In this document: one piece after another, positions 3-18,659 of the stretch
Layout: each line of letters begins with the position of its first letter
Position numbering within the stretch: the first letter of the stretch is position 1
NCBI GenBank assembly: GCA_020027215.1
Contig: JAHRAO010000006.1
Coordinates: forward strand, 1 to 64,000
Direction of reading: 5' to 3'
Length of the DNA: 64,000 bases
Source of the DNA: Gammaproteobacteria bacterium
GTDB taxonomy: Bacteria > Pseudomonadota > Gammaproteobacteria > JABABF01 > JAHRAO01
Program-made: the position numbers and the translations under genes
The notes under the pieces: generated by a model
The model's input: the letters and a program-made list of their open reading frames with translations, nothing else
What the model was told of the DNA's origin: nothing
Databases searched by the model: none

Positions 3-1361
3 TTAATTGCACTTAAACCAGAATGGCATGATACCGATCATAGAAAAGGTGGTATTAAAGTGGTTATGACTGCATCAGCATCGGATGCAGAGCATTTGCA
101 ACAACATCACACTTCAAAACAACAAAAGAAAGACTTAGAAAAACGATTTAAAGATCCATCCAATGAACTCAAAATAGTGGTTGTAAGAGATATGTGGTTA
201 ACCGGTTTTAATGCACCTTGTCTTGCGACCATGTACATCGACAAACCCATGCAGGGCGCCAACCTTGCTCAAGCAATCGCAAGGGTGAACCGAGTATTTA
301 AGGACAAACCCGGCGGATTGGTGGTTGATTACATCGGTATCGCACCACAACTCAAAGAAGCACTTGCGGCCTACAGTGCGGCAAAAGGGAAAGGTAGACC
401 CACCATCGACTCCAGTGAGGCGCTGAGAATTCTCAAGGAGAAGATTCAAGTTGCACGAGACCTGTTGCATCCAGTGGATTGGAGTGAGTTCAGAACTAAA
501 GCACTGCAATTGATTCCAGAGTGTCTCGATCACGTTCTTGAGCAGGAAGACGGAAAACGGAGATATGCGGATACCGTTTTGCAGATGACCAGGGCATTTG
601 CTCTCTGCGGAACTCTAGATGAAGCACTCGAACTCTCTCCAAAAGTTGCATTCCATCAGGCAGTTCGTGCGCCATTGATCAAGGGAGAGAGTGGAGACAA
701 GAAAAAAAAGGATGTGGACTACGAACTCCGCCAATTGGTCTCTCAAACGGTTGTAGGCGAGGGAGTGGCAGACGTATTCAAACTTGCAGGGTTAAAGTCA
801 CCTGACATCTCAATTCTCTCGGAAGACTTCCTCAAAGAGGTTGTGAAGATGCCCAAGAATCTTGCGGTGGAACTGCTGGAGCGACTGATCAAGGACGAGG
901 TGAAGACCAAGTTCAAAACCAACGTGGTCAAGCAACGCAAGTTCAGTGACCTACTACAAAAGTCGCTTGGGAAGTACCAGAACCGATCGGTAGAGGCGGC
1001 ACAGGTCATTGAGGAACTCATCGCTATGGCGAAGCAGTTCAAAGAAGACCTGGAGAGACGCCAGAGTCACAACCTCAGCGATGAGGAAGAAGCGTTCTAT
1101 GACGCGTTGGCACAAAATGATTCTGCGTCAGAACTCATGGGTGAAGAAGTCTTGGTTGAAATGGCACGAGAAGTTGCTAAGAAACTCCGCGACAATCTTA
1201 CAGTTGATTGGGCGGTAAGAGACAGTGTTAGAGCAAAATTACGCATCTTGATCCGAACATTGTTGAGAAAATACAAGTATCCACCAGACCAGCAGAAAGA
1301 TGCTGTAGATATGGTGCTGAGGCAAGCAGAAGTGATCTCTGAAGATGCAGTAGTGGCGTGA
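3..1361 (+). CDS. hsdR: Type I restriction enzyme subunit R, C-terminal part (cut by window edge)
   Basis: The frame is open from base 3 without a start, so the gene begins upstream of the window. HsdR is the ATP-dependent translocase and nuclease subunit of type I restriction enzymes. About 450 residues are visible. They begin in the second helicase domain with motif V-like GFNAP and motif VI-like QAIARVNRVF, followed by VVDYIGI. A long helical C-terminal region follows, of the kind that joins HsdR to the methylase core (DUF3387-like). The nuclease and Walker A parts would lie outside the window, as would hsdM and hsdS. A 69 bp gap separates it from the next gene on the same strand, which fits one defence operon. 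The family call rests on the helicase motifs and this tail; the exact type I subclass is not determined. Confidence 0.85.
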   Translation, partial: LIALKPEWHDTDHRKGGIKVVMTASASDAEHLQQHHTSKQQKKDLEKRFKDPSNELKIVVVRDMWLTGFNAPCLATMYIDKPMQGANLAQAIARVNRVFKDKPGGLVVDYIGIAPQLKEALAAYSAAKGKGRPTIDSSEALRILKEKIQVARDLLHPVDWSEFRTKALQLIPECLDHVLEQEDGKRRYADTVLQMTRAFALCGTLDEALELSPKVAFHQAVRAPLIKGESGDKKKKDVDYELRQLVSQTVVGEGVADVFKLAGLKSPDISILSEDFLKEVVKMPKNLAVELLERLIKDEVKTKFKTNVVKQRKFSDLLQKSLGKYQNRSVEAAQVIEELIAMAKQFKEDLERRQSHNLSDEEEAFYDALAQNDSASELMGEEVLVEMAREVAKKLRDNLTVDWAVRDSVRAKLRILIRTLLRKYKYPPDQQKDAVDMVLRQAEVISEDAVVA

Positions 1362-1430: not shown

Positions 1431-4400
1431 ATGCCAACTATCAAATCATTACTGGAAGACGCAAGGAAACAACTTGTTGAAACGGGGACGCGCAACCGAC
1501 TTATTCATGTGAATAGGAAAGCTTCTCGGGGGAATCTGCTAAACGTTATCAACGAACGATCTGACGATATTTTCAATATCATGCGCGTCAGTGAAAAGAA
1601 AATGAGATTTGCCGGTAAGGGCAAGGATGATGATGCATATTCTGATGATGTTGTATTTACTGAAATACAAGACGAAGAATTCGATGAAGGTAGGTACACC
1701 GATTCTGTCTTAGAGACGCCACTTACTCCTGATGCGTTACAAAAACGTCTCCTCAAATTATTTAGAGATTCTAAAACCGCAGAAGAAGAACAGGGGATCA
1801 ACATCCTTTACCTAGCAATGGGTTTTTTGCAGTGGTACGAGGACAAAAATTCATCGGTACTTCGCGAATCGCCATTAGTATTACTTCCAGTCGCACTGGT
1901 TAGGAACGACAGAACTTCAACATACAATATTGTGTGTAGAGATGATGATATTGTTACCAACCTTCCGCTTCAAGAAAGATTAAAACTTGATTTTGGAATT
2001 TCATTGCCGGAAATAGATGATTCCTCAGAGTGGGCACCCTCTGATTACTTTAGAAAAGTTCAGCAAACAATTGAAGGTAGAGATCGTTGGAACATTGATG
2101 ATGACGGAATGCAACTTGGTTTCTTTTCATTTGCAAAGTTGATGATGTTACACGATCTTGATCCGCATAATTGGGATGAACAATCTCTGTTAAAAAACCA
2201 ACTCATCAGTGGATTATTAGCAGATGGTTTTTCTCCAGAACCTCCCTTGTTTAAAGAGGACGATAAGCTTGATGATAAGTTGTCTCCTTCACAAATTCTT
2301 CATGTAGTAGATGCAGATCCCAGTCAAACCAAAGTCATAGAGGAAGTGCGTGCAGGACGTAATCTAGTTGTGCAGGGACCCCCTGGTACAGGAAAATCTC
2401 AGATAATTACTAATATCCTCGCTGCAGCAGCGCACGATAACAAGAAGGTTTTGTTCGTTGCTGAAAAGATGGCGGCACTTGAGGTTGTTTACAACCGAAT
2501 GTGTAAAGTTGGATTAAAGGATTTGTGTTTGGAGTTGCATTCACGAAGTGCCAATAAGAAGGTTTTTTTTCAAGGTCTCGCAGAGACCATTTCAAATAGT
2601 CGAGGCGTGGAATCACCTGATCTCGACGCTGAAGAATTGATTAAAGTACGTGACGAATTAAACAAAGTTTCGAACCTATTACACACACCACTACCCAACA
2701 GAAACTACACGCCCTATTCCGCTCTTACCAAACTAATTGGATACGTTAGTAAAGATACCTGGGCACCACGTTTTGATGCAACTAACCTTGAATCTATTAC
2801 AAGTGATCAAGAGTCTCTAATATTTGAAGCACTTCAGGACTATTTGGATATAGTTTTCGAATTTGGTTTCGGAAACGACAATCCATTTCGAGGAACGACA
2901 AACTTAGATCTACAACCAACTGACCTTCAGCGACTTTCGGACGAACTGGAGAATGCAATCGAAAACCTAAGTAGTTGGACTTCTTATCAGTCTGAGTTAG
3001 AACAGGAAATAAGTCCTGAGTCACTCCTGACTTTATCTAATGCCGACAGTTGTCGATCAATTTTTGAGCACTTACAACGAGCACCCGATAAGTCAACTCA
3101 ATTCATCGCAATTGTTCTTGAAAATAAAGATATTGCAAGGTTTGAGGATGCTGTTAGTTGCGCGCAATCTTGGGTTTGTTTTAAGGAAGAAATATCTGGA
3201 ACAGTTACCGGCAATATTTGGAAAAATGATATAGAACATCTCAGGGAACCTATTGTTAAAGGTCTGAGTTCGTTGCTTTCGAGGATTTTTGGAAAATATC
3301 GATCTGCCAGCAAAGAGCTGGGGACATATCTAAAAGGGGACTTGCCAAAATCTGCCGTAGATAGATTGAAACTCGTCGATTCGATTATCGAAGGTAAGGC
3401 AAAGAAAAGTCTTTTCGATGAAGAAATCGAATTTCTAAAATTAAAATTAGGTGATGAGTGGCGGGCTAAAAGAACGCCTTTCGATGAAATAGCACGTGTA
3501 CTTGAGTGGTTTCAGCAAACTTCAAAAGAAATCTTAGAATTTTCTTCTGAGAAATTGAAGGGATTAATTGATAACGAGACTACTCGAACTTTTAGTACAC
3601 AGGACTTTGAGGCACGCAAGTCATCTCTTCTTAAATCCTTGGGAAAGATACACCAGAGATTAGGTTTATCTGATCTTAATGAAGAATCCATGAAGGATCT
3701 TTCATTAACAGAATTGCAAACCCGAATGGAGGCAATGACCCAGAATCCTGACGCATATTCTCTGTGGACTAGAACTATTTTTGCATCAAAAAGGTTAATA
3801 GAACTTGATTGTGAACCTTTATTAAAAATGATTACGGAAGATGCCTTAAAGTACGCACAAACTGAATTAGGTTACGCAATTGCAGAGACACGTTGGAACC
3901 ACGCAAGATCAGTCAAACCAGAACTTAATAAACTTTCCAGATTAGATAGACATGCCTTGGTCAAGACTTTCACAAGCCTTGAACTGAGTCGAGTCAAACA
4001 AGTTAAAGAGGCGATTAAAGAAAGTCATCTAAGTCAGATCCCTCAAGGGTCTGCAGGTGAGATGGGATTGATACGCGGTGAAATCGCCAAGAAGCGCAGA
4101 CATCTTTCTATACGTCAGGTTATGACACGCGCTTCCGAGATGGTGCAGAGGATAAAACCGGTTTTCCTTATGAGTCCAATTTCTGTCGCTCAATATCTGC
4201 CTCCGGGAAAAGTCGAATTTGACTTGCTTGTAATTGATGAAGCGAGTCAAGTTAAACCTGTGGATGCCTTTGGTTCTATTGCTCGCGCGAAACAAATCGT
4301 TGTTGTAGGCGATCAAAAACAATTACCTCCGACTTCATTTTTTGATCGTCTTACTGATAACGCGCCTATCGATGGCGACGAGGAAGAAGAGATCGCCGCT

Positions 4401-6086
4401 GCGAAGGCGACAGAGATGGAGAGCATTCTATCTCTTTGCGAAGCAAGGGGATTGAACGAGAGGATGCTTGAATGGCACTACAGATCTCGAGATCCATCGC
4501 TTATTTCTGTTTCAAACGTAGAGTTCTATCGCAATCGTCTCATTCTCCCACCTTGTCCAACAGAATCAGACGACGCGTTTGGTCTTAAACTAGTAAAAGT
4601 CCCCGGTGTTTACTCAACTGCTTCCAAGGGAGGGGGCCGCCCAACCACTAACCGAATTGAAGCAGAGTATATAACGAATCGTTTATGTACTCTGGCAACT
4701 ACAAGACCTCGTTTTTCAGTTGGAATTGTAACCTTTTCGAAATTACAGGCAGATATGGTAACCGAGGTTTTGGAATTGAGAAGACGTGAAGATGAAACCC
4801 TCGATCGGTTTCTGCGGGAAGACAAAATTGAAAATGTCTTTGTAAAGAATATAGAAAATGTTCAAGGAGACGAAAGAGACATCATCTTGATATCAGTGGG
4901 ATATGGTCCTTACGAAGAAAACGGCAAGTTGCGCTCGATGAAATTTGGACCAATCAACTTAGAAGGTGGAGAACGAAGACTAAATGTACTTTTTAGTCGT
5001 TCACGCGTGGCGTGTGAAGTTTTTACTTCCTTTGACCCTAGTGATATTGATGTTACCCGAACTTCAAACGAAGGTCCTGTCGTTCTCAAAAAATTCCTTG
5101 AGTTTGCCAAGACGGGGAAACTAAACGAAACCTATGTTTCGGAGGGTGATGCCGACTCCCCATTTGAAGAAGACGTTGCTGACGTGATTAGGGGTCTGAG
5201 ATACGACGTTGATCATCAGGTGGGTACAGCAGGTTTCAAAATCGACTTGGGGGTCCAGGATCCTGCAAATCCCAACCATCATATTTTGGCAGTTGAGTGT
5301 GATGGGGCAACATACCATAGTGCGCTTTGGGCAAGAGAACGGGATCGAATGAGACAGCAGGTCCTTGAAGGATTTGGTTGGCACTTCCATCGAATTTGGA
5401 GTACTGATTGGTTCTACCAAAGAGATAAAGAAGTTCAACGACTACAAAAAGCATTGAAAGACGCAAAAATGCGTGACCTTGGTCATTCTATTAAGGGGGC
5501 AAATAAAGATATACCCATTAAAAAAGAATCGCAGGTTCCGAACCCAGAACTTAAGCGGTTTATCTTAGAGGAATCCTCTATCAACGTCCCTCTATATAAA
5601 AAAGCAAATGTTAGGGTTGGTACAAATTACGAACCTCACGAGCGCCCAATTAATGATATGATAAATGTACTAAAAGAAATCATTGAAATTGAGGGTCCAA
5701 TTCATATCAACGAGATTGCGAGACGATATGTAGCATCGCATGGAAAGTCCAGAGTAGGGTCACGAATTAGTGATCATGTAAAAAAATCACTCACGATAGC
5801 GAAACGTGATGGACATCTTGAGTGCTATGGACCTTTTTGGGCAACTGCAGATCAATTATCTAATGTTCCAATAAGAGACCGGAGCAAGGAGTCGGTTCCA
5901 ACTACTAATGCGGAAAATATCTCTTACATGGAAATAATTGCTTGTGCAAATCTTATTGAGAAGGATTCAGGGAAAGTTGATGAGGATGAATTAGTCCGAG
6001 TTATTGCTAAAACTCTTGGTTTTAAAAGAGCGGGACCTGATTTCCAAACACACGTGAAAAATTGTCTATCGACAATTAAACGCTAA
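1431..6086 (+). CDS. DUF4011-type SF1 helicase fused to Vsr-like nuclease, with DUF3320
   Basis: This 1551-residue protein has the layout of the DUF4011/helicase/MTES_1575-nuclease/DUF3320 family, commonly found in defence islands. The N-terminus (LLEDARKQLVETGTRNRLI) is DUF4011-like. Walker A GPPGTGKS lies at about 316-323 and Walker B VIDEASQ around residue 936, followed by VVGDQKQLPP and a late SF1 motif with NVQGDERDIILIS. At about 1285-1330 come VECDGATYH (E1289, D1291) and a WSTDWF segment, typical of a Vsr-like endonuclease fold. The C-terminal 150 residues hold a DUF3320-like segment and a winged-helix-like region. The ribosome site is GAGAGGTG upstream of ATG. The predicted role, cleavage or unwinding of foreign nucleic acid, is inferred from domains and context. 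No in-frame defect was seen. Confidence 0.85.
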   Translation: MPTIKSLLEDARKQLVETGTRNRLIHVNRKASRGNLLNVINERSDDIFNIMRVSEKKMRFAGKGKDDDAYSDDVVFTEIQDEEFDEGRYTDSVLETPLTPDALQKRLLKLFRDSKTAEEEQGINILYLAMGFLQWYEDKNSSVLRESPLVLLPVALVRNDRTSTYNIVCRDDDIVTNLPLQERLKLDFGISLPEIDDSSEWAPSDYFRKVQQTIEGRDRWNIDDDGMQLGFFSFAKLMMLHDLDPHNWDEQSLLKNQLISGLLADGFSPEPPLFKEDDKLDDKLSPSQILHVVDADPSQTKVIEEVRAGRNLVVQGPPGTGKSQIITNILAAAAHDNKKVLFVAEKMAALEVVYNRMCKVGLKDLCLELHSRSANKKVFFQGLAETISNSRGVESPDLDAEELIKVRDELNKVSNLLHTPLPNRNYTPYSALTKLIGYVSKDTWAPRFDATNLESITSDQESLIFEALQDYLDIVFEFGFGNDNPFRGTTNLDLQPTDLQRLSDELENAIENLSSWTSYQSELEQEISPESLLTLSNADSCRSIFEHLQRAPDKSTQFIAIVLENKDIARFEDAVSCAQSWVCFKEEISGTVTGNIWKNDIEHLREPIVKGLSSLLSRIFGKYRSASKELGTYLKGDLPKSAVDRLKLVDSIIEGKAKKSLFDEEIEFLKLKLGDEWRAKRTPFDEIARVLEWFQQTSKEILEFSSEKLKGLIDNETTRTFSTQDFEARKSSLLKSLGKIHQRLGLSDLNEESMKDLSLTELQTRMEAMTQNPDAYSLWTRTIFASKRLIELDCEPLLKMITEDALKYAQTELGYAIAETRWNHARSVKPELNKLSRLDRHALVKTFTSLELSRVKQVKEAIKESHLSQIPQGSAGEMGLIRGEIAKKRRHLSIRQVMTRASEMVQRIKPVFLMSPISVAQYLPPGKVEFDLLVIDEASQVKPVDAFGSIARAKQIVVVGDQKQLPPTSFFDRLTDNAPIDGDEEEEIAAAKATEMESILSLCEARGLNERMLEWHYRSRDPSLISVSNVEFYRNRLILPPCPTESDDAFGLKLVKVPGVYSTASKGGGRPTTNRIEAEYITNRLCTLATTRPRFSVGIVTFSKLQADMVTEVLELRRREDETLDRFLREDKIENVFVKNIENVQGDERDIILISVGYGPYEENGKLRSMKFGPINLEGGERRLNVLFSRSRVACEVFTSFDPSDIDVTRTSNEGPVVLKKFLEFAKTGKLNETYVSEGDADSPFEEDVADVIRGLRYDVDHQVGTAGFKIDLGVQDPANPNHHILAVECDGATYHSALWARERDRMRQQVLEGFGWHFHRIWSTDWFYQRDKEVQRLQKALKDAKMRDLGHSIKGANKDIPIKKESQVPNPELKRFILEESSINVPLYKKANVRVGTNYEPHERPINDMINVLKEIIEIEGPIHINEIARRYVASHGKSRVGSRISDHVKKSLTIAKRDGHLECYGPFWATADQLSNVPIRDRSKESVPTTNAENISYMEIIACANLIEKDSGKVDEDELVRVIAKTLGFKRAGPDFQTHVKNCLSTIKR

Positions 6087-6103
6087 TTCAACGGTTACTT
6101 ACT

Positions 6104-7063
6104 ATGCAACTTTTTCAAAACGATAAAAGAGTACTTACTCCTATTGAGAAAGACTCCTTCAAACTCGAGAAGGATATTCAGTCTCTTATTGAGTCAAACA
6201 TGGAGACACTTTTCGGACTTGAATTTGTGAGTTCAGAATTTGCTGTTGCCGAGTTCCGCCTCGATTCGTTAGCATACGATGAACAAAATAATTCATTTGT
6301 GATTGTTGAGTACAAGAAAGGATACAGTTATTCGGTTGTTGATCAAGGTTATTCGTATCTGTCAGTGATGCTGAATAACAAAGCGGATTTTATCCTTGAG
6401 TACAACGAAAAAACGGGTAAGCAGTTAAAACGTAACGATATTGACTGGACTTCCTCTCGAGTGATCTTTGTATCGCCATCTTTCAACACCCACCAGAAGA
6501 ATAGTGTGAACTTTAAGGATGTCCCCTTCGAACTTTGGGAGATAAGGAAGTTTGAAGGAGGTCTAGTTGCCTTGGAACAACAGGTTTCCAACTCAACTGA
6601 GAGCATCGAAAAAATCTCAGGAACCAACCCAAACTCTGTGATCAAGAAGGTTGCAAGTGAAGTTAAGGTTCCTTCAGAAGCACAACTGACGTCTGGTTTG
6701 TCCCCTGATCTTGCGGAAGTTTGGGAAGCGTTCAAGTCACAATTGCTGGAACTGCCCAATACCTCAATACACACGACACAGAACTACGTGGCGATAAAAT
6801 ACGAAGGCACTGCATTTATTTACGTGAGATTCCGGAAGAAGGAACTCTCTTGCCAAATAGTTCAAGGAAATGTCTATGCGGATGGCAAGGTAAGCACGAA
6901 GTTCTTTGATGAGCTTGATGATCCCAAGAGTGTCACTGGTGTTCGTTATTGGACTTTGAGGTCCGGAGTCAAAGGCAGCTTCTACACCTTCCCCATCAAG
7001 TCACTAGACGAATTGGACTACAGAATGTATCTGGTCAAACAAAAGTATGAACACATGAGTTAA
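6104..7063 (+). CDS. DUF5655 domain protein, PD-(D/E)xK nuclease-like
   Basis: A 319-residue protein starting 17 bp after the helicase gene. The N-terminal half resembles DUF5655 proteins. It has a conserved Asp in FRLDSLAYD (D54) followed by a strand with E69-Y-K71 in VIVEYKKG, the spacing expected of a PD-(D/E)xK nuclease core. A central low-complexity Ser/Lys-rich linker (about 160-200) leads to a C-terminal half with alternating strands, which fits the DUF5655 region proper. Nuclease activity is inferred from the motif only. Its position directly behind a helicase-nuclease suggests a shared defence role. There is no signal peptide or membrane segment. Confidence 0.7.
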   Translation: MQLFQNDKRVLTPIEKDSFKLEKDIQSLIESNMETLFGLEFVSSEFAVAEFRLDSLAYDEQNNSFVIVEYKKGYSYSVVDQGYSYLSVMLNNKADFILEYNEKTGKQLKRNDIDWTSSRVIFVSPSFNTHQKNSVNFKDVPFELWEIRKFEGGLVALEQQVSNSTESIEKISGTNPNSVIKKVASEVKVPSEAQLTSGLSPDLAEVWEAFKSQLLELPNTSIHTTQNYVAIKYEGTAFIYVRFRKKELSCQIVQGNVYADGKVSTKFFDELDDPKSVTGVRYWTLRSGVKGSFYTFPIKSLDELDYRMYLVKQKYEHMS

Positions 7064-7074
7064 CAAAGAGATCA

Positions 7075-7448
7075 ATGACCACCAAAGACATTATCAACGA
7101 TAAACTGAACCAACTCGAACAATCACTAATTAACCAAGACCACTTGAACAACCCCATCGAGTTCCTGACCCAACTTGCATCACCCTCAAAGTACTTTCAT
7201 CTGATGTCTGATGAAGATGTAAATCGGTTCTGTGAAGTTTTCTATGCCCCAAAACGAGACGAAGGAATGGTAATAACGCCGAAGACAACAAACGGAACTT
7301 CTTCAAACAACAATTTGAAGGAATGATGATCGACTACATCAATGAAAGGTTCGATTTCTACAAGAAGATGGACGATAACCCGTCAATGAAGAATCTAATC
7401 TTCCAAATGATGTATAAGGATTATCAGAGTCAGAGGGTCCAACCTTGA
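7075..7448 (+). pseudogene. Small ORF in two frames: frameshifted gene or -1 programmed frameshift
   Basis: The first frame runs from ATG 7075 to TGA at 7324-7326 (83 residues). The reading frame one base back (-1) is open across the same point and continues to TGA 7446-7448, encoding a convincing protein tail (KRNFFKQQFEGMMIDYINER, then FDFYKKMDDNP) that the first frame lacks. The two frames join at C CCA AAA (7248-7254), a perfect X XXY YYZ slippery heptamer. The TGA of the second frame overlaps the TTG start of the GIY-YIG gene (TTGA), which argues that the second frame is the natural end. The product would be about 124 residues. The tail faintly recalls the C-terminus of type I R or other large helicase proteins, but I do not recognise the family. 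Whether the shift is programmed, a mutation or a sequence error is undecided. Confidence 0.55.
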
Positions 7449-8062
7449 ACGAGATAGTCTACATACTCACAAACCCCGTCATACCCGATCTTGTAAAAAT
7501 AGGGACAACTACAAATCTTGAAGAACGAGTAAGACATCTATCATCACATTCAGGTGTCCCTGTCCCATTCGAGGTCTACTATGCTTGTGTTGTCTCCGAT
7601 TCATCAAAGGTGGAAAAACGCATCCATGATGCTTTTGGAGACCATAGAGTAAATTCGAAGAGAGAGTTTTTTAGGATCAATCCAGAACGAGTTTTATCAA
7701 TACTTAAGTTAGTTGAAATTCAGAATGTCACTCCAAACAGTGATTTTGTTGAAGACCAAGATGAACAACAATCTCTGAATAAAGAAAGAGGAAGAAGAAG
7801 ATCAAACTTCACGTTTTCGTCGGTTGGAATTCCAGTCGGTTCAATACTTCATTTTGTTCGTGATGAGAATGTGACTGTCAAAGTCGTTGATGATCGAAAT
7901 GTTGAGTTTGAAGGTGAAGTTACATCTCTAACACAATCATCATTGATTTTACTTAATCAAAAGTATGGGTGGAATTCATCATCAGTCGCTGGTCCTTGTT
8001 ATTGGGTGTTCGAGAATGAAACCCTGTCTGAGAGACGATTAAGGTTAGAAAGTGAAAATTAG
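7445..8062 (+). CDS. GIY-YIG nuclease family protein (T5orf172/MUG113-like)
   Basis: A 205-residue protein. The first 95 residues carry the GIY-YIG core of the T5orf172-like subgroup: VYILTNP, then VKIGTTTNLEERV with the conserved Arg, KVEKRIHDAF with the catalytic-type Glu, and the closing NSKREFFRI. The C-terminal part (from about 115) starts with basic RGRRRSNFTF and has a beta-rich segment that could bind DNA; I do not recognise that domain. The only start in place is TTG at 7445, which overlaps the preceding stop (TTGA) and has GAGGG about 8 nt upstream, suggesting translational coupling. It is the last gene of the left defence operon. Its end overlaps the tail of the opposite-strand phage remnant. 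Confidence 0.8.
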   Translation: MNEIVYILTNPVIPDLVKIGTTTNLEERVRHLSSHSGVPVPFEVYYACVVSDSSKVEKRIHDAFGDHRVNSKREFFRINPERVLSILKLVEIQNVTPNSDFVEDQDEQQSLNKERGRRRSNFTFSSVGIPVGSILHFVRDENVTVKVVDDRNVEFEGEVTSLTQSSLILLNQKYGWNSSSVAGPCYWVFENETLSERRLRLESEN

Positions 8063-8314: not shown

Positions 8315-8917
8315 TCAAAAGCGTGCGGTTGTACGTGGATTTTCGCCCAGCACCGAATATGCGCGTAGCACCAATGAAATTGTGTAAGGAACAGCAGATG
8401 CCAGTAATGAACCGCCGATGGAATCTGCAGTCAATACCACATCGCTTGCGAAAGCAGTCATATTGAAACTATCTTGCCCGTCCGTGAATACTTCGGTTCT
8501 ATGCGCCCTCGCATCTGTGGTCAAATCTGGAATATTAGAGTTAATGTCTGAGAAATGATGAATGACGCGTAGTCGCGCTTCGTAAATTGCATTGACTGCC
8601 GCTTCAAATAAAACGGTTCCTTCTGGTCGGGTCGCAAAATTACGGTGTGCCAATAATCTTCCAGTGGGCACTGTTTTTGGAACCAAAGGAATAACATAAT
8701 CATCTGCCGCCAGTATAGATCCCGAAGTGCTAGCAGGACTAGCGATATCTTTGTGCTGGCTAAAGAAATGATACGGGTTTGCGTCCTGTGTCTCTCTATA
8801 GTCACAACCATCAGCCCCTTGGGGTCCCGTATGGCCTTGCAGGCCTTGTGGATCTGGCGGCCCTTGTGCCACCGTCACCACACTAATTGTGCTGTCTGCT
8901 ACCACTACTTGTGTCAT
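8315..8917 (-). CDS. Phage structural protein with collagen-like N-terminal repeat
   Basis: A 200-residue protein at the downstream end of the Mu-like head cluster. The N-terminal 40 residues hold Gly-X-Y repeats (QGLQGHTGPQGADG), as in phage fibre and tail-tip proteins. The rest looks like a beta-rich structural domain; I do not recognise its family. Its ATG overlaps the stop of the upstream gene by 4 bp (ATGA), so it is translationally coupled to the head and tail genes. It could be a tail or fibre component, or a decoration protein. The frame is intact. The neighbouring in-frame remnant has a similar repeat. Confidence 0.55.
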   Translation of the reverse strand: MTQVVVADSTISVVTVAQGPPDPQGLQGHTGPQGADGCDYRETQDANPYHFFSQHKDIASPASTSGSILAADDYVIPLVPKTVPTGRLLAHRNFATRPEGTVLFEAAVNAIYEARLRVIHHFSDINSNIPDLTTDARAHRTEVFTDGQDSFNMTAFASDVVLTADSIGGSLLASAVPYTISLVLRAYSVLGENPRTTARF

Positions 8918-9264
8918 CGGGTCACCTCTCCACTTACCATGATGTTGCCTTCTAGCAACCGCGTGACCGTCCCATTGTCATCTACTTCAAGGTCATATAC
9001 ATATGTGCCTGGGATAAGCATCTGTGTGTCTGCCGCACTGATGGTAATCGTTGCCGATCCATCATTATTGATCATGATGCCACCCGGTGGATTAACAGAT
9101 GATAACGACAGGATGATCTGTGTATCGCGCTTCGCTACCCTCGCCTGCATACGCACAGATTTTCCTGTAAAAGTGATCGCCACACTATCGGCGGTGCGCC
9201 AGCGAAGGACGCGCGAAAAAGTTGCGCCTTGTTCAATCAATAAATTAAGATTGCCCGCGGCCAT
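8914..9264 (-). CDS. Small phage structural protein
   Basis: A 116-residue protein beginning MAAGNLNLLIEQGATFSRV. This start, followed by a beta-rich body with RMQAR and a C-terminal segment LLEGNIMVSGEVTR, is common in tailed-phage structural proteins placed between the head and tail genes. The start codon lies on the last base of the upstream gene and the stop overlaps the next start (ATGA). Gene order (gp36-like, gp37-like, then this) matches the Mu-like head-to-tail transition. The exact role, head-tail joining or tail baseplate, is not resolved. Confidence 0.6.
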   Translation of the reverse strand: MAAGNLNLLIEQGATFSRVLRWRTADSVAITFTGKSVRMQARVAKRDTQIILSLSSVNPPGGIMINNDGSATITISAADTQMLIPGTYVYDLEVDDNGTVTRLLEGNIMVSGEVTR

Positions 9265-9686
9265 TAAACATTACGCACCCAAAATGGCACATCGTAACTC
9301 AACCGCCAAAAATAAATCCCTCCGCTAATATCTTGCAAAGTACCGTTACTGGCGGTTACAGGTCCCACCGCATCAGTTGGTTGCCAGCCAACCAAGGCGT
9401 TATCAATTTTAGTGATAAACGCTTCAATGGCTTCGGCCGCACTCCCGCCGCGACGGTCGGACAAACTTTTTACAGCAATGGTCACCATCACTTCTCGTGT
9501 ATCGCGCTGTAACACCTGTTCAGTTGCATATTGGTTGGCTTCCATCGTACGCCCCGTGGGAATAACAAAGATCGCGGGAAGTGCACTGGGGTACTTTAGC
9601 ACCCGATCAAACTCCAATGCCGAATGCACCGATTTGATACCATCCACTTGTTTTTTCAATCTGTCTAACCACTGCCTAATATCCAT
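9264..9686 (-). CDS. Mu-like phage gp37-type tail terminator-like protein
   Basis: A 140-residue protein following the gp36-like gene with a one-base overlap. Length, position and the pattern (N-terminal helix, VFVIPTGRTMEAN-like strand-turn, and a final strand with YDVPFWVRNV) fit the gp37 family of Mu-like prophages, thought to act near the head-tail junction. No disruption is visible. Assignment rests mainly on synteny with gpT and gp36 and on general sequence character, so the family name is tentative. Confidence 0.6.
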   Translation of the reverse strand: MDIRQWLDRLKKQVDGIKSVHSALEFDRVLKYPSALPAIFVIPTGRTMEANQYATEQVLQRDTREVMVTIAVKSLSDRRGGSAAEAIEAFITKIDNALVGWQPTDAVGPVTASNGTLQDISGGIYFWRLSYDVPFWVRNV

Positions 9687-10231
9687 TAAAAACCACTGAG
9701 TGAAGGGCGATTAAATACACTCTGCTCACTGCGCACATCGGCCTCCTGCCCGCCGGTAATCGTTTTCCCATCGCTGCCAATCTCAGCGGCACTAATTTTG
9801 CCCATCCCAACATCGCGCAAGAACTGCACCGACATCTTGTAAATATTTGTTTGGTAATCTGTCATATCCACCACAGACAACCCAAGCAGGTGATAAGTCA
9901 CAATACGCATCACATGGATATTCTTTTGAGCATCCACTAATGCACGCCCTTGCAGATAGCCATCTGCTTCGTTGATCGCATTGGTGATTAGCGTATTGAG
10001 CTTACTTTGCCCCGCATGCGCCGCAGCCAAATCAATAGCCGTCAAATCATTCGCTGAAACCGTGCCATTGATAAGCTCTATAAAATCATCGCTGGAAAGA
10101 TTTTCTCCGCCATTTTTTATCAGTGCGTCTTTGAATTCATCCGCGGAGAGATCAACCGACGCAATATAATTCGTTGCCGTAACCGCCACACTTTTACCCT
10201 CCGCAAAAGCTGTAAGGTTTCGCCACGCCAA
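9686..10231 (-). CDS. Mu-like phage gp36-type protein (DUF1320-like)
   Basis: A 181-residue protein next to the major head gene. The central part (NAINEADGYLQGR, then MRIVTYHLLG) matches the DUF1320 pattern, in which an acidic residue, DGYL and R precede a helix. DUF1320 proteins sit after gpT and gp35 in Mu-like phages and are thought to be head-completion proteins. The start used is TTG (10231); an in-frame TAG lies upstream. The N-terminal 70 residues do not look like the usual DUF1320 start, so the 5' end may be rearranged. Otherwise intact. Confidence 0.6.
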   Translation of the reverse strand: MAWRNLTAFAEGKSVAVTATNYIASVDLSADEFKDALIKNGGENLSSDDFIELINGTVSANDLTAIDLAAAHAGQSKLNTLITNAINEADGYLQGRALVDAQKNIHVMRIVTYHLLGLSVVDMTDYQTNIYKMSVQFLRDVGMGKISAAEIGSDGKTITGGQEADVRSEQSVFNRPSLSGF

Positions 10232-10270
10232 AGCGCAAGCGAGACCCTATGCTACGGCAATTGTTGATTG

Positions 10271-11161
10271 TTAAGATAGCCAATTGGTAATGAGCAGATC
10301 TACTGCTTGATAGTTAATATTGCTTTCTCCACCGCTCACATACTCCTTTTGCAACACTTCTTTCGCCTCACTGCGAAGTGAAGGCGGCACGACTAATATG
10401 CTTGGCATAATACCCAAGGGGTTGCCTGCATCCGATTTGAACGACACCATCGTTTCCATCGCAGCGTTAAAGTTAGCCGCATCTAGCGTTTGATTGCTGG
10501 CGTAGGCCTGCTGCCAAAATCCAAACCCTGCATTGCACCGTCCATTGACGCCATACCGATATTCATCACGCATGAATACGCCTTCATCGTGCAAGTCCAT
10601 CAGCGTGGTCAATTCGTATGGACGGCGTTCCTGTAGAATAAGTGGCTTGATAGCACGCATGGCATCCAGCAGATACCAATACGCACCCGATCCGTCACTA
10701 TCCACATTGCTCGTATCCGTTTTTTTATTGCGCCCGACTGGATGGTTAGTGGCAAAAAACGGTTTACCGTCATAACATTTGTCTGTCCTCCCGCGCGCCA
10801 ATAAACGAAACACCAACTGATCAGGATGCCGTTTTGCGCTGAATCCCAACTCCTGCATCAAAGGCATATACACCGAATATTGATCGTTCTCAATATCATC
10901 GCGAGAAACGCCGATCGTCTACTCAAACTTCTTGTTTTCAATCGTATAGTTGTGTTGGGTGATATCGCGTAAAACACGCTCACCAACCCATTCTTGCAAC
11001 TGCGGAAATTGACCTAACCAATTGTAAGATTGCGTTTTGGTGCTTGATGGCATCTTAGTCGCTACCTTATCGTGATCACTTGGCGTATCACGAAACATTT
11101 GGTTGTAGGCAGTTGTGAATGCGGTTTTTAATCCACTAAGATTTTGTTGGTTGATAATCAT
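10271..11161 (-). pseudogene. Mu-like major head protein gpT, interrupted by one amber codon
   Basis: Two pieces of one frame. Residues 1-80 (11161-10922) read MIINQQNLSGLKTAFTTAYN with WLGQFPQLQEWVGER, the classic gpT N-terminus. TAG occupies 10919-10921. The same frame then continues TIGVSRDDIENDQYSVYMPL to the end at 10271, with GKPFFATNHPVG and RYGVNGRCNAGFGFWQ as in gpT. Both halves are clear and no base is gained or lost, so a single substitution made the stop. Without suppression no full capsid subunit (about 296 residues) can be made. Internal restart at GTG 10873 would give only the C-terminal 200 residues. This supports a decaying prophage. Confidence 0.85.
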
Positions 11162-11176
11162 AATTTTGCTCCTCAG

Positions 11177-11581
11177 TTAAATAATTTGTACCCAAACGCC
11201 GTCACTGTCCACCTGCACAATTTTACCCGCGACACTACTGCCAGTGGCGAGTGTGTCAACGGTTTGATCATCTACGATGTAGCAGTTATCACCAATATCT
11301 GTGCGTTCAACGATGTTTGCGCCGGTCACATTATCAAGCTTAAAAACACCGCGACGAACCGTAACTGTAATAGCATCATTCACTCCACCTGTGTTATTTA
11401 CTTGATTTTGGGCAATGCCAACCGTAACCTTATTCGCAGAATCAGTTGCACTTTCGGCATAACCCGCCGCATTCAGTACGACTAGTGAGCCTGCATAAAT
11501 CGTCTGCCCAGCAGCAACACCGTGGGCAAATGTATCGCCCTCACGGTAATCGGTATATCTATCTTGTGTTAATGTAACCAT
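11177..11581 (-). CDS. Phage head decoration-like protein (DUF2190-like)
   Basis: A 134-residue all-beta protein between the gpI and gpT genes. It has GDTFAHGVAAGQTIYAGSLV near the N-terminus and repeated short strands ending VVDSDGVWVQII-like. This resembles DUF2190 or head-fibre and decoration proteins found at this site in Mu-like and other phages. The frame is intact and the start ATG lies 15 bp after the gpI stop. Function is inferred from position and fold type. Confidence 0.6.
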   Translation of the reverse strand: MVTLTQDRYTDYREGDTFAHGVAAGQTIYAGSLVVLNAAGYAESATDSANKVTVGIAQNQVNNTGGVNDAITVTVRRGVFKLDNVTGANIVERTDIGDNCYIVDDQTVDTLATGSSVAGKIVQVDSDGVWVQII

Positions 11582-11596
11582 CTCTACTCCTCCAAT

Positions 11597-12775
11597 TTAA
11601 GCCGCTTGCGCGGGTTTTGTTTCAACTGTTTTGCCCGCCTTGGTTGCGGCAAATGCCTCAGCCGATACGCCAGTGCTTTTGCATATCGCCAATTCATGCG
11701 GCAGCAGCCCATGGGCTTCGTTTATGTCATCAGTAGGTGCTATGCCGCCAGTTTGGGTTTTCAACAATGCACCGATCGGCGGAGTTTTATCCAAATACGC
11801 CTTAAGCGTATCCATATCCGTTTCACCAAGTTTCCGCGCCCAACTTTCTTGCGAAGGCAGTAACTTCCCGCTGGACAATGATGTTTTGACCAACTTATCA
11901 ATCGTGCTCTCTCTCGCAAGAGTTTGTAACTCAATAACCTGTTTTTTCAACGTCTCAAATATTTCTATCGGAACATATTTAGCGGGATCGGGATTAGCAG
12001 CTTGATGATTATTGCTCTCTGATTACAATGCAGCAACGGCGGTTTCGATCTCGTCCGCTTCCGCTTTCTCATCCAACCTCAATGCTTTCAGTGCTTCCAT
12101 ACCTATTTCTGATTTTTTGAGCAACGCCATTACAAAACCATCCTCGCTAGTGCTCTCGGGCAATCCCAACTCACTAACGCAAGTTGCCAATAATGATACT
12201 TTACTCATCGCTTTCTCCTCATCATTTTCAAAATATGAACTCAATAATTCTGCCCGCATGGTTGCAGGAATAATCTTTTCTGGATTGACAATCGCCGGCA
12301 CATTGACCAATGCAGCACTGATAAATTTCCAAATCCGCCCGCTGTGTTTCTCGTGGAGAATAACGGGCGATAGATAGCGATATTCACCCGATTTCAATGC
12401 CTCTTGTGCCCGCTTCGTCCATTCCACATCAGTCGCCACCAAACCCCGACCGGGTTGATATTCCGCGTGCTTAATCCATCCTGCGGTCGGTACAGGACCA
12501 TTGCCGACAGGTTTAATGGATTGGTGTTCGTAATCTATTTGCAGTGGAATATCACTCGCATTGATTTCAGCCGCCATGCGCTCGCCCATCTCATAGGTCA
12601 GCACAAAAGATGCCGCATCCCGCGGGCGACCATCTCGCCCACAAAATTGGCCGTCCGGAATGAGCAGTAAATTATTACTACTTGCACTAACATCAGTGGC
12701 AGCCAGAATAGTAATTTCCATTGCTCGTGCGACAGGGGCAATGGAAGCAGAATTGTCGTGTTTGGATGTATCCAT
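11597..12775 (-). pseudogene. Mu-like gpI protease/scaffold protein, interrupted by TAA
   Basis: The first 250 codons (12775-12026) resemble Mu gpI: an N-terminal protease part with LLLIPDGQFCGRDGRP, DIPLQIDYEHQS, TAGWIKHAEY and GEYRYLSPV. TAA at 12023-12025 is followed in the same frame by SESNNHQAANPDPAKYVPIE and a helical scaffold-like tail (LLPSQESWARKLGET, then HGLLPHELAICKSTG). The two parts together have normal gpI length. The protein normally matures the capsid, and the scaffold Z is made from its C-terminal part, so an internal restart could still yield scaffold. The gene starts at ATG behind AAGGTGG. The upstream gpF and gpG genes of a Mu-like phage are missing; an unrelated cargo block sits there instead. 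Confidence 0.8.
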
Positions 12776-14418: not shown

Positions 14419-15162
14419 TTAATAGGAACAAGCAATAACCTGCTGAGGCATTGCGTCCCAAGTCTTACCTTGATACGTTCTACCATTCGCTTTTTTATTA
14501 CGCTTAATTCTATCGGCACCCCAAGTGCCCCATTGCTTGAAAAAAAATGCCACTCGATGACTTTGGCATTGCCGATAAATATTGTCAATCCAAGTACTAT
14601 CCATTAGTCTGGCTTTATTGCCACTTTCACCGCCGACAATCACCCAGTGGATGTCGCTTAAATCCACTTTCCCTATGTCTTCCAATAGCGGCTCAACCGA
14701 TAAAAATCTGGTTTTAGCATTAATTTTGCGCAGTACATCAATTCGTGGTACGCCATGTTTTTTATTTTCAACTGAAACGCCAAGCCATGCGTTCTTGGGT
14801 ACGTCGCGGGTAGCAAAATACTTTTGCATCACTTTAGGGCGCTTTGTCAAAATCTGATAAGTGTGCTGTGGACTCTTGCGTATAGTCTCCATAACTTTAT
14901 TGATGAAATCAAATGGCACGCGTGGGTGAAACAAATCGCTCATAGAATTAACAAAGTACATCGTTGGAATTTTGCGTTTTAACGGTTGATTCAGGCGATC
15001 TTCATGACAAGTTATAGCAAAACCGTCCTGGTAACCATTCACCCCCATGGCTTTAAGCCGTTTAGACAGCGTCTCTGCATAACAATACTTGCACCCTGCC
15101 GATATCTTAGTGCATCCCGTCACAGGGTTCCAAGTTTTCTCTGTCCACTCTATATTTGACAT
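14419..15162 (-). CDS. Three-Cys-motif protein, DUF5131 (phage Gp37/Gp68 family)
   Basis: A 247-residue protein. The N-terminus reads WTEKTWNPVTGCTKISAGCK followed by YCYAE, giving the C17-x6-C24-x2-C27 motif that defines this family and resembles radical-SAM cluster ligands. Further family marks are PTMYFVNSMSDLFHP, TKRP, AWLGVSVEN, FLSVEPLLEDIG, WVIVGGESG and the C-terminal FFFKQWGTW. The enzymatic role is unknown; nucleic acid modification is often suspected. Its ATG overlaps the TcmP stop (TAATG), so the two are translationally coupled, as the usual co-occurrence of the families predicts. Such pairs are mobile and often sit on phages and islands. Confidence 0.85.
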   Translation of the reverse strand: MSNIEWTEKTWNPVTGCTKISAGCKYCYAETLSKRLKAMGVNGYQDGFAITCHEDRLNQPLKRKIPTMYFVNSMSDLFHPRVPFDFINKVMETIRKSPQHTYQILTKRPKVMQKYFATRDVPKNAWLGVSVENKKHGVPRIDVLRKINAKTRFLSVEPLLEDIGKVDLSDIHWVIVGGESGNKARLMDSTWIDNIYRQCQSHRVAFFFKQWGTWGADRIKRNKKANGRTYQGKTWDAMPQQVIACSY

Positions 15163-16415
15163 TAACCCATTTTTATTACTAATTGTCGCTCTACAGTAAT
15201 GATCCTTTTATCTGAATTGGCATTACCCTTTATTGTAATAGATTTTTCCTCTTTCAAACTATCTAATGCTTTTTGGATGTCTTGATCGCTTCCCGGCGTG
15301 TGGTTTGTGATCCCTTGTTTCAATTTTTTAACGGTTATGGCAGATCCGGACTGGATATTTTTATATAAATAATTCCCAATTTCTCTATGTAGTGCTTCAT
15401 GTGTTTGTTGTGACGCAGCAACATCAAACCGAAACGATGAGTGAGGTAAAGTAAGTTGTTTAGTATAGTCTTCATCGAATTTTGATCTATAGCCCAGCAT
15501 ATTAATCCCTGAAGTACCATAATGCTGAGATATATTACCTTTATCCCAGTGAAGTCCCACCATCTCTTGACGCGCTCTATAGTGCCTTGATATGTGAATT
15601 AGCCAATATCCTCCTTGTGACTTTGAATTATCACTAATAATAAAAAATGGAGTGAAAAAATAATTAAGACCATAAAAAATACTGGACATCCTATGTTGGA
15701 TTATAGAACGACATTTATCTCGATTAGATTGATTACGTCTGAATTGTTGAAAGTCTTTCTGTGAGAAGCCAATCCTACTCAATGCATTTTGTTTTGATTC
15801 ATCTAAATAAGTAATTAAGGCGTCTACCGCAAAGGTAAGGATGATTTCAGCATTGCTATTGTTCAGGATACATTTAATTTGCTTAATTAACACATCGCTA
15901 TAGCCATACTGATCTAATATAAAAATTGAGCGACCATCTTGACGATTGTTGCTTTTTTTCTTTATTTGGGCAATAATAGTTGGTAAATAATGTCCAAATT
16001 CTCCACACAATACTTGTGATTTATTTTGGAAACCTTCCTTGCGAATTTCACCTTGTAAGTATTGAGCAGTTTGTTGATTTTTCTCAACAAATATAAAATC
16101 TTCTTCAAATTGAATAGGTGTTTTTGGATTTAAAGAGCGAATGCCTGCTTTAGCCTCGGCAACGGTGTTTAATAAAATTAATGGTGATCCATCTACAATA
16201 TTGTCTTGGTATTGATATTTTCCTCCGCCAGCAAAACCATCTACTATTGTGATCTTAAGAGATCTGTTTGGAAAACGATTAAGTGGTTGAGAAACAATTT
16301 CTAAGTATTTAGTCAGATAATCGCGAATTATTTCATGTTTACATTTACTATGGTTATCTAATGTGGGGATTTGACCATCACTCCATAAATATTTTCTCAT
16401 ATCATATCGCCCCAT
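15162..16415 (-). CDS. tcmP: Three-Cys-motif partner protein TcmP
   Basis: About 417 residues if started at ATG 16415 (alternatives ATG 16400 and TTG 16433). Family features are YLWSDG with HSKCKHEIIRDYLTKYL, ITIVDGFAGGGKY, DGSPLILL, FIFVEKN, a conserved FILDQYGY region, and a C-terminal winged-helix-like part. The FAGxG segment is like the SAM-binding loop of methyltransferases. TcmP is by definition encoded beside three-Cys-motif proteins, and here the DUF5131 gene follows with a TAATG overlap. Its 5' end overlaps the truncated methyltransferase frame, so its native promoter region has probably been replaced. The biological role of the pair is not established. Confidence 0.8.
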   Translation of the reverse strand: MGRYDMRKYLWSDGQIPTLDNHSKCKHEIIRDYLTKYLEIVSQPLNRFPNRSLKITIVDGFAGGGKYQYQDNIVDGSPLILLNTVAEAKAGIRSLNPKTPIQFEEDFIFVEKNQQTAQYLQGEIRKEGFQNKSQVLCGEFGHYLPTIIAQIKKKSNNRQDGRSIFILDQYGYSDVLIKQIKCILNNSNAEIILTFAVDALITYLDESKQNALSRIGFSQKDFQQFRRNQSNRDKCRSIIQHRMSSIFYGLNYFFTPFFIISDNSKSQGGYWLIHISRHYRARQEMVGLHWDKGNISQHYGTSGINMLGYRSKFDEDYTKQLTLPHSSFRFDVAASQQTHEALHREIGNYLYKNIQSGSAITVKKLKQGITNHTPGSDQDIQKALDSLKEEKSITIKGNANSDKRIITVERQLVIKMG

Positions 16416-16687
16416 ATAAGTTTGTTGGTCCAACCTGTCATTTGACGACCTGATGCAAAACCAAATGACCCCTGTGCCATTTTGACTTTTTCGTTTCTTG
16501 GTTCGTCTATTTGTTCAATAATTTAGAATGGTAGGACCACATTTGTGACTTCATCAGATTTACCGTTCCAAGTAAGTTCTACTTGCTTTGATTCATCAAA
16601 TAATAAGAAACGATATTTTTCAGGTAAGACCTTGCCTTCCTCAATGAGTTTTACGACATCTCGTTTTTCATTATCTGTGAGTTTCAT
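16397..16687 (-). pseudogene. N-terminal remnant of an adenine DNA methyltransferase gene
   Basis: From ATG 16687 the frame reads MKLTDNEKRDVVKLIEEGKV and LPEKYRFLLF, then NGKSDEVTNVVLPF, a stop TAA (16523-16525), and onward in the same frame IIEQIDEPRNEKVK, then GWTNKLIWGD. This is the opening of site-specific adenine methyltransferases of type III Mod kind. There the stop position is normally Gln (CAA), and WTNKLIWGDN leads into the catalytic domain. Here homology ends exactly at GD, where the TcmP start begins; the catalytic part is absent. It is therefore a remnant marking a recombination join. It is the first gene-like object downstream of glmS. Confidence 0.75.
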
Positions 16688-16792: not shown

Positions 16793-18640
16793 CTACTCCA
16801 CCGTCACGGACTTGGCGAGGTTGCGCGGTTGATCGATGTCTGTGCCTTTGAGGACGGCGACGTGATAGGCAAGGAGTTGTAAGGGGATGGTATAGAGAAT
16901 AGGTAATAGGATTTCATGAGTGGTCGGTAATACCAATTCACAAATATTATCGCCACTTATCTTGCTTTTGCGGTCGCTAAAGATGTATAGGTGACCACCA
17001 CGTGCCATGATTTCGCGCAGGTTGGATCGCATTTTGTCGCGCAAACGATTATTGGGCATTAAGGCAATAACCGGCATAGTAGGTTCTACTAATGCTAAAG
17101 GTCCGTGCTTTAGTTCACCAGCGGGAAAGGCTTCGGCATGGATGTAAGAGATTTCTTTCATTTTCAGTGCGCCTTCCAATGCAATCGGGTAATACATTCC
17201 TCTACCGACAAATAAAGCGTTATTCGTATCACGCAAGCCATGTGCCATATTTTGTATGGTTTCATCTAATTGCAGGATGCGCTCTAATAATTGTGGTAGG
17301 CGTTGCAAATCTTTAATCAGTGCCCTTTCCTTTTTGGCGGGAAAATGTTGGTTTCTTACCAGATTAACGACCAATAGCAAAAGAACAATCAATTGCGAGG
17401 TGAATGCCTTGGTGGAAGCAACCCCAAATTCAGGTCCAGCATTCGTCAATAAAAGAATATCGGCTTCGCGCGCCATAGAACTTTCGGCAACATTACATAC
17501 GACTATGCGCGATAAGTAATCTTTTTTCTTGCTATCTCGCAAACAGGCAAGGGTATCGGCTGTTTCCCCCGATTGCGAAACGAGAAGCAATAAGGTGCCT
17601 TCTTGTAATGAATAAGGGCGATAACGATATTCGCTGGCGATTTCCACCGTGCACGGATAATCACTCAATTCTTCTAACCAGTGGCGCGCAACTAACCCCG
17701 CATGATAGCTCGTGCCACAGGACACAATATGGATATGGCGCACCTGCTCTAATAAATCATTTAATGCGTTGTCTGGAGTCGGTAGGGATAATTGCCGATC
17801 GCTGATACGTTTTTGTAGGGTGGCTCTAATCGCCGAGGGCTGTTCAAAGATTTCTTTTACCATATAGTGACGAAAATTACCTTTTCCGCTCGCTCCGTCA
17901 TCCGTAGAAATATGCACGACTGGGCGTTGTAAATCCTGTTCATGCGGGTTAGTAATGGTATAAGCATCGCCTTTAATATGAATGACATCGTCTTCCTCTA
18001 AATAGGTAAAGCGATCGGTTACTTGACGCAGTGCTTGCACATCCGAAGCCAAGTACAGTTCGTTGATGCCATTGCCTAACACTAGCGGGCTCCCTTTGCG
18101 CACGCCGATAATTTGACGGGGATGCTTTGTGCTAATGACCACAAAGGCATAGGCGCCTTTCAGACGCTCAATACATTGATTGACCGCGGTGAATAAATTG
18201 GTATCTGTGCCGCTTTCGCTTTGCTGCCGAAGGTAATAATGAATAAGGTGACCGATCACTTCGCTATCTGTATCCGAAGCAAATTGATAGTGTGCTGCGA
18301 TTAATTCCTTACGCAACACAGCATCATTTTCAATAATGCCGTTATGCACGACCGATATACTATCGTTACTGTGGTGTGGATGGGCGTTCTCTGTGGTGAC
18401 TGCGCCGTGGGTTGCCCAACGCGTGTGGGCAATACCGATTTGACCTGTTAAGGTCTTCTTTTCCAACGCACGCTCTAAATTCGCCACCTTGCCTGTGCGT
18501 TTAATGCACCGCAGCCGTTGACGGGCAGTGAGCACCGCCAATCCCGCTGAATCGTAACCGCGATATTCCAAGCGGTATAAGCCTGCAAGTAAAATATCGG
18601 TTACATTTCGTTCGGCAAGGACTGCAATAATACCGCACAT
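16793..18640 (-). CDS. glmS: Glutamine-fructose-6-phosphate aminotransferase
   Basis: Makes glucosamine-6-phosphate from fructose-6-phosphate and glutamine, the first step to UDP-GlcNAc for peptidoglycan and LPS. The start is set at the ATG giving MCGIIAVLAERN, because the Cys after the initiator Met is the amidotransferase nucleophile; an in-frame start three codons upstream is unlikely. Visible are YRGYDSAGLAV, AHTRWATHG, two SIS domains with SCGTSYHAG and SQSGETADTL, and the C-terminal DQPRNLAKSVTVE. Length is 615 residues, usual for the family. It lies 20 bp after glmU in one operon. Its 3' end is the attTn7-type position, and the accessory island follows. Confidence 0.97.
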   Translation of the reverse strand: MCGIIAVLAERNVTDILLAGLYRLEYRGYDSAGLAVLTARQRLRCIKRTGKVANLERALEKKTLTGQIGIAHTRWATHGAVTTENAHPHHSNDSISVVHNGIIENDAVLRKELIAAHYQFASDTDSEVIGHLIHYYLRQQSESGTDTNLFTAVNQCIERLKGAYAFVVISTKHPRQIIGVRKGSPLVLGNGINELYLASDVQALRQVTDRFTYLEEDDVIHIKGDAYTITNPHEQDLQRPVVHISTDDGASGKGNFRHYMVKEIFEQPSAIRATLQKRISDRQLSLPTPDNALNDLLEQVRHIHIVSCGTSYHAGLVARHWLEELSDYPCTVEIASEYRYRPYSLQEGTLLLLVSQSGETADTLACLRDSKKKDYLSRIVVCNVAESSMAREADILLLTNAGPEFGVASTKAFTSQLIVLLLLVVNLVRNQHFPAKKERALIKDLQRLPQLLERILQLDETIQNMAHGLRDTNNALFVGRGMYYPIALEGALKMKEISYIHAEAFPAGELKHGPLALVEPTMPVIALMPNNRLRDKMRSNLREIMARGGHLYIFSDRKSKISGDNICELVLPTTHEILLPILYTIPLQLLAYHVAVLKGTDIDQPRNLAKSVTVE

Positions 18641-18659
18641 GTCAATCAATCACTCATGG

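Follow-up and report, generated by a model that had tools for sequence, protein, structure and literature searches.

The row of defence genes at the start of the window, as the whole 64,000-nucleotide stretch of DNA analysed is called here, is very probably a stack of defence modules: the end of one type I restriction-modification (RM) operon, a giant helicase-nuclease embedded in it, the presumed accessory nuclease of that operon, and a broken second RM system followed by an accessory nuclease of its own (Table 1). The row appears mostly as ordinary defence-island stacking, with no new composite machine. The gene content, the intact motifs, the separability of the modules and the deletion in the second hsdR can be read directly from the compared sequences.

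Table 1. Features at the beginning of the window.
Feature	Coordinates	Strand	Evidence
hsdR1, 3' part (type I restriction subunit, T1RH/HindI-like C-terminus)	3..1361	+	PADLOC REase_I E=9e-136; Pfam T1RH-like_C
Intact helicase-nuclease giant: DUF4011, SF1 motor, MTES_1575 (Vsr-like) nuclease, DUF3320	1431..6086	+	PADLOC, Pfam
NucS/EndoMS-like PD-(D/E)xK nuclease with C-terminal DUF5655 (PDC-S18)	6104..7063	+	PADLOC; predicted structure; conserved residues
27-bp repeat, module junction	7064..7090	+	Second copy on contig C23
hsdR2 remnant	7195..7448	+	Two pieces aligned to L119 HsdR
Intact GIY-YIG (T5orf172) nuclease, probable C-terminal RAMA (PDC-S57)	7445..8062	+	PADLOC, Pfam

The reading frames listed in an earlier note on this DNA were all recovered on the plus strand with the domains described there: the hsdR end, the 1551-aa giant, the 319-aa DUF5655 protein, a short ORF (7075-7326, carried on in the -1 frame to 7448) and the 205-aa GIY-YIG protein. 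The intergenic gaps are 69 bp (hsdR1-giant), 17 bp (giant-DUF5655) and 11 bp (DUF5655-short ORF). PADLOC names hsdR1, the giant, the DUF5655 and the GIY-YIG proteins REase_I, PDC-S37 (also Hhe), PDC-S18 and PDC-S57, respectively. The hsdR which the note had placed in the row is indeed present, although it lies outside the span of 1431-8062 given for the row and is incomplete, since contig C40 begins with base 1 of the window. As the first two gaps are short and free of promoter-like or terminator-like sites, co-transcription of hsdR1, the giant and the DUF5655 gene is suggested.

The short ORF, previously taken for a small two-frame gene, is by its alignments a pseudogene, the remnant of a second hsdR (hsdR2) with a 481-bp internal deletion. 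A contig from the viral collection (L119), found by a profile search built on relatives of the GIY-YIG protein, carries hsdM, hsdS, a 979-aa hsdR and a GIY-YIG gene as a single overlapping operon. The first frame of the short ORF encodes 24 aa with 75% identity to residues 736-759 of this HsdR, and the -1 frame encodes its last 60 aa (920-979, 93% identical). The DNA alignments to L119 converge at a GAA (window 7265-7267), a 3-bp microhomology common to both sides; the 481 bp absent relative to L119 are not a multiple of three, hence the two reading frames. With two short pieces left and the frame changed, there is no functional hsdR in RM system 2. The remnant and the GIY-YIG gene together are 86% identical to L119 DNA across 793 bp, and both the hsdR2 tail and the GIY-YIG gene have a dN/dS of ~0.06, from which it follows that the deletion is recent and that the GIY-YIG gene has been under selection.

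There is next to no chance that the short ORF is a genuine gene whose expression depends on a programmed -1 frameshift at the heptamer C CCA AAA (7248-7254). The heptamer is a formally correct slippery sequence within the frame overlap, and the stop of the -1 frame overlaps the GIY-YIG start; yet the frame change coincides with the deletion point relative to intact hsdR2, the downstream stem is unremarkable (z=-0.44) and the joined product has no relatives in 369 genomes or plasmids. Programmed frameshifting was rejected on the ground of the deletion junction, and a conserved short protein on the ground that no homologues of the ORF were found in the 369 genomes, plasmids, Pfam or PADLOC.

By the same comparison the GIY-YIG gene is apparently the last gene of RM system 2: its product is 91% identical to the L119 protein, and the TTGA overlap of the hsdR stop and the GIY-YIG start is identical in the window and in L119. 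The catalytic-type residues of its T5orf172 domain (Y6, K18, G20, R28, E57 and E74) are conserved. The C-terminal half resembles CcrM (Foldseek E=2.4e-3, probability 1.0) and, as a match that is weak by E-value, MPND; going by the protein names, we take both matches to fall on RAMA domains. The Pfam RAMA profile matches 1 of 11 family members (5e-4) and gives no match to the window protein, which on the predicted fold probably ends in a RAMA domain. A search of solved structures by sequence gave nothing significant for this protein. In the family as a whole, 8 of 29 full-length loci lie in type I or type III-like RM operons; elsewhere many members are stand-alone and several are next to housekeeping genes.

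The first module is built from hsdR1, whose product is 69-70% identical to the HsdR of genome G046, and from the DUF5655 gene. The other part of hsdR1, hsdM and hsdS were not found elsewhere in the assembly, where the one type I system detected, on C23, is unrelated. The earlier assignment of the DUF5655 protein as PD-(D/E)xK-like is borne out: in the predicted model (pLDDT 87) its N-terminal half matches the EndoMS/NucS fold, D54 and Y70-K71 are invariant and E69 is near-invariant. Within this family, 17 of 32 loci lie within or next to hsd operons, a count which, like the other family locus counts, contains near-duplicate contigs (e.g., L099/L100 and L107/L108) and does therefore not represent independent samples. 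The gene order hsdM-hsdS-DUF5655-hsdR occurs in plasmids of Acinetobacter and Cupriavidus, and on a viral contig (L105) a window-type hsdR (46% HsdR identity) is followed after 83 bp by DUF5655, with no giant. Such neighbourhoods suggest that the DUF5655 nuclease frequently serves type I RM operons as an accessory and that the one in the window belongs to RM system 1. The viral-contig relatives of both the DUF5655 and the GIY-YIG proteins were recovered with alignment queries, the single DUF5655 sequence finding none among the viral contigs; searching solved structures with its sequence gave nothing significant, and none of the papers in the collection searched mentions DUF5655. Elsewhere in the genome of the window, L204 (G000:C11:44000-48913) holds another decayed hsdR tail, followed by a DUF5655 fragment which runs in frame into the next gene (CTP synthase-like by eye).

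An important question is whether the giant belongs with the genes around it. Locus L067 of genome G046 has hsdR, DUF5655 and GIY-YIG genes in the order and strand of the window (HsdR 69%, DUF5655 55% and GIY-YIG 55% identical) without a giant, and the nearest giant of that genome is on a separate contig. This is direct evidence that the giant and hsdR-DUF5655 can occur apart. Both intervals of this locus, hsdR-DUF5655 and DUF5655-GIY, are filled by opposite-strand MORN-repeat genes (L067:6032-11343). Since L067 keeps this order, DUF5655 and GIY-YIG may have been adjacent before the giant arrived.

The giant itself matches the PADLOC profile PDC-S37 over its full length (E=0, residues 5-1532 of 1550) and that of Hhe at E=3e-191, the SF1 motor being split and all Pfam domains lying in a single chain. 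Because its Walker A motif (GPPGTGKS, 316-323), its DEASQ box (936-940) and the nuclease residues E1246, E1247, D1272 and E1289-G1292 are invariant among 12 aligned sequences, it looks active. It shares the domain order of the single-gene Hhe/PDC-S37 family and keeps every helicase and nuclease motif, whereas the Hhe model, with its 1911 positions, is longer and gives only a partial match. A further difference is the placement of the window gene between an hsdR and an accessory nuclease. Protection against phage by Hhe was reportedly demonstrated by experiment by Gao and co-workers in 2020. In the papers retrieved on DUF4011 no mechanism was given.

Related giant loci, 20 in number, were collected from genomes and plasmids and screened with DUF5655, GIY-YIG and hsd profiles; a search of the viral contigs with the single giant sequence found no relatives. 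A recurring neighbourhood of the giant with DUF5655 and GIY-YIG genes, by which the earlier note had proposed to check its reading, did not emerge: 19 of the 20 loci, a set including L022, L025 and L057 with short flanks, have neither. Among these is the closest relative (L021, 66% identical), which is flanked by integrases. A hsd gene occurs within ~8 kb of the giant in two other loci (L083 and L085). With so few DUF5655 or hsd neighbours, the giant is judged to be mostly a stand-alone gene family.

The only one of the 20 loci with DUF5655 beside a giant-like gene is L082 (G046:C165). Here, a DUF5655 gene lies 52 bp upstream of the giant-like gene, which has no DUF3320 match, and a GIY-ResIII gene lies downstream; the order in L082:7426-19361 is DUF5655, giant-like helicase-nuclease, a 106-aa ORF, a second DUF5655, split methylase genes and a GIY-YIG-ResIII fusion. 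This is by its gene content a different RM-type system built from like ingredients, although its neighbours make some functional link between the giant and DUF5655 or GIY-YIG conceivable. That the giant and the NucS-DUF5655 protein form a working pair, in which the second nuclease processes what the motor produces and the RM genes are incidental, would agree with their adjacency both in the window and, at only ~35% identity, in L082; we consider it unlikely in view of the 19 giant loci that lack DUF5655, the frequent placement of DUF5655 in or beside hsd operons and the absence of the giant from all 20 viral-collection DUF5655 loci.

Even less probable, and in our opinion barely tenable, is a composite restriction system in which the giant, NucS-DUF5655, the small protein, GIY-YIG and hsdR are a single functional unit. 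The genes do share a strand, with short gaps and no promoter-like site in between, but the small "gene" is a deletion remnant, each part is found in other company, and among the loci read no other one has the giant, DUF5655 and a separate GIY-YIG gene together. Of the two possibilities that the earlier note had left open, composite or stacked, comparative evidence thus favors the stacked one, and its leaning towards one unit does not hold. Several nuclease folds do follow each other, as it said, but their origins are three separate ones, and the five "genes" include a pseudogene. That the last genes are packed so closely, read at the time as a sign of one unit, is due to the hsdR2 deletion and to the overlap of hsdR2 with GIY-YIG that RM system 2 already had.

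For the stack of modules we infer the biochemical roles and the direction of insertion as follows. Module 1 would be the end of a type I RM operon in which hsdR1 is normally followed by NucS-DUF5655, the stand-alone Hhe/PDC-S37 giant having been inserted between the two, an order of events drawn from two comparison loci. Module 2 would be the 3' end of another, unrelated type I RM operon which lost most of the length of its hsdR and kept GIY-YIG intact. Acting alone, the giant might engage invading or replicating phage DNA with its SF1 motor and cut it with its Vsr/MTES-type nuclease. NucS-DUF5655 would serve RM system 1, provided that hsdM and hsdS are present past the contig edge, and the GIY-YIG protein would either have lost its partner RM system or act by itself. 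More speculatively, NucS-DUF5655 and GIY-YIG-RAMA could be a recurring accessory-nuclease kit of type I/III RM systems, the RAMA domain letting the GIY-YIG enzyme read the adenine methylation made by the partner methylase and so extend the cutting of DNA flagged by the RM motor; we regard this as possible but rather doubtful.

The 27-bp repeat at the module junction has a sole other copy in the genome (G000:C23:12929-12955; L205:4930-4956), ~0.9 kb downstream of another type I RM operon, and a scan of the viral contigs gave none. The repeat could mark the border of an island or a site of recombination, which fits module assembly by recombination, short of proof. Related genes for large serine recombinases ('LHIYTRVST') are found near RM genes (L119:11058-12575, L120:2-1378 and L205:11528-11848), suggesting that RM islands are mobilised by such a recombinase. 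Directly 5' of the hsd operon of L119, an asparagine-synthase/QueC-like domain is fused to a C5-cytosine DNA methylase (L119:84-2072). Further along the window, a minus-strand cluster of Mu-like head genes with no recognised tail region (8315-12775 and 16793-18649) lies between the defence genes and glmS, the island being on the downstream side of glmS, which is the Tn7 insertion side. A DUF5131 protein paired with a 423-aa protein (weak GMT-like wHTH match) is encoded at 14419-16433, downstream of glmS and adjoining a DUF6731 protein.

Known type I RM operons, the Acinetobacter hsdM-hsdS-DUF5655-hsdR and the L119 hsdM-hsdS-hsdR-GIY ones, match the window in the hsdR, DUF5655 and GIY-YIG families and in their order; in comparison, the hsdR1 of the window is cut by the contig edge, its hsdR2 is deleted and the giant lies in between. 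TgvAB, a two-gene GmrSD-like type IV enzyme, is an independent defence system that acts on its own inside a type I RM cluster, that on VPI-2 of V. cholerae (PMC11411939). Like the giant, it is an unrelated defence system nested within type I RM genes, but it is a GmrSD-like type IV pair as opposed to the Hhe-like helicase-nuclease of the window, which adds a further case of a defence gene nested among type I RM genes.

Overall, tight spacing on the same strand is insufficient to declare a new multi-gene system, as an apparent four-nuclease operon arose here from a deletion in a restriction gene and an embedded stand-alone helicase-nuclease. Moreover, PDC-S18 and PDC-S57, until now unexplained PADLOC candidates, appear to reside often in RM operons of type I or III and thereby gain a testable context as putative accessory nucleases of these operons.
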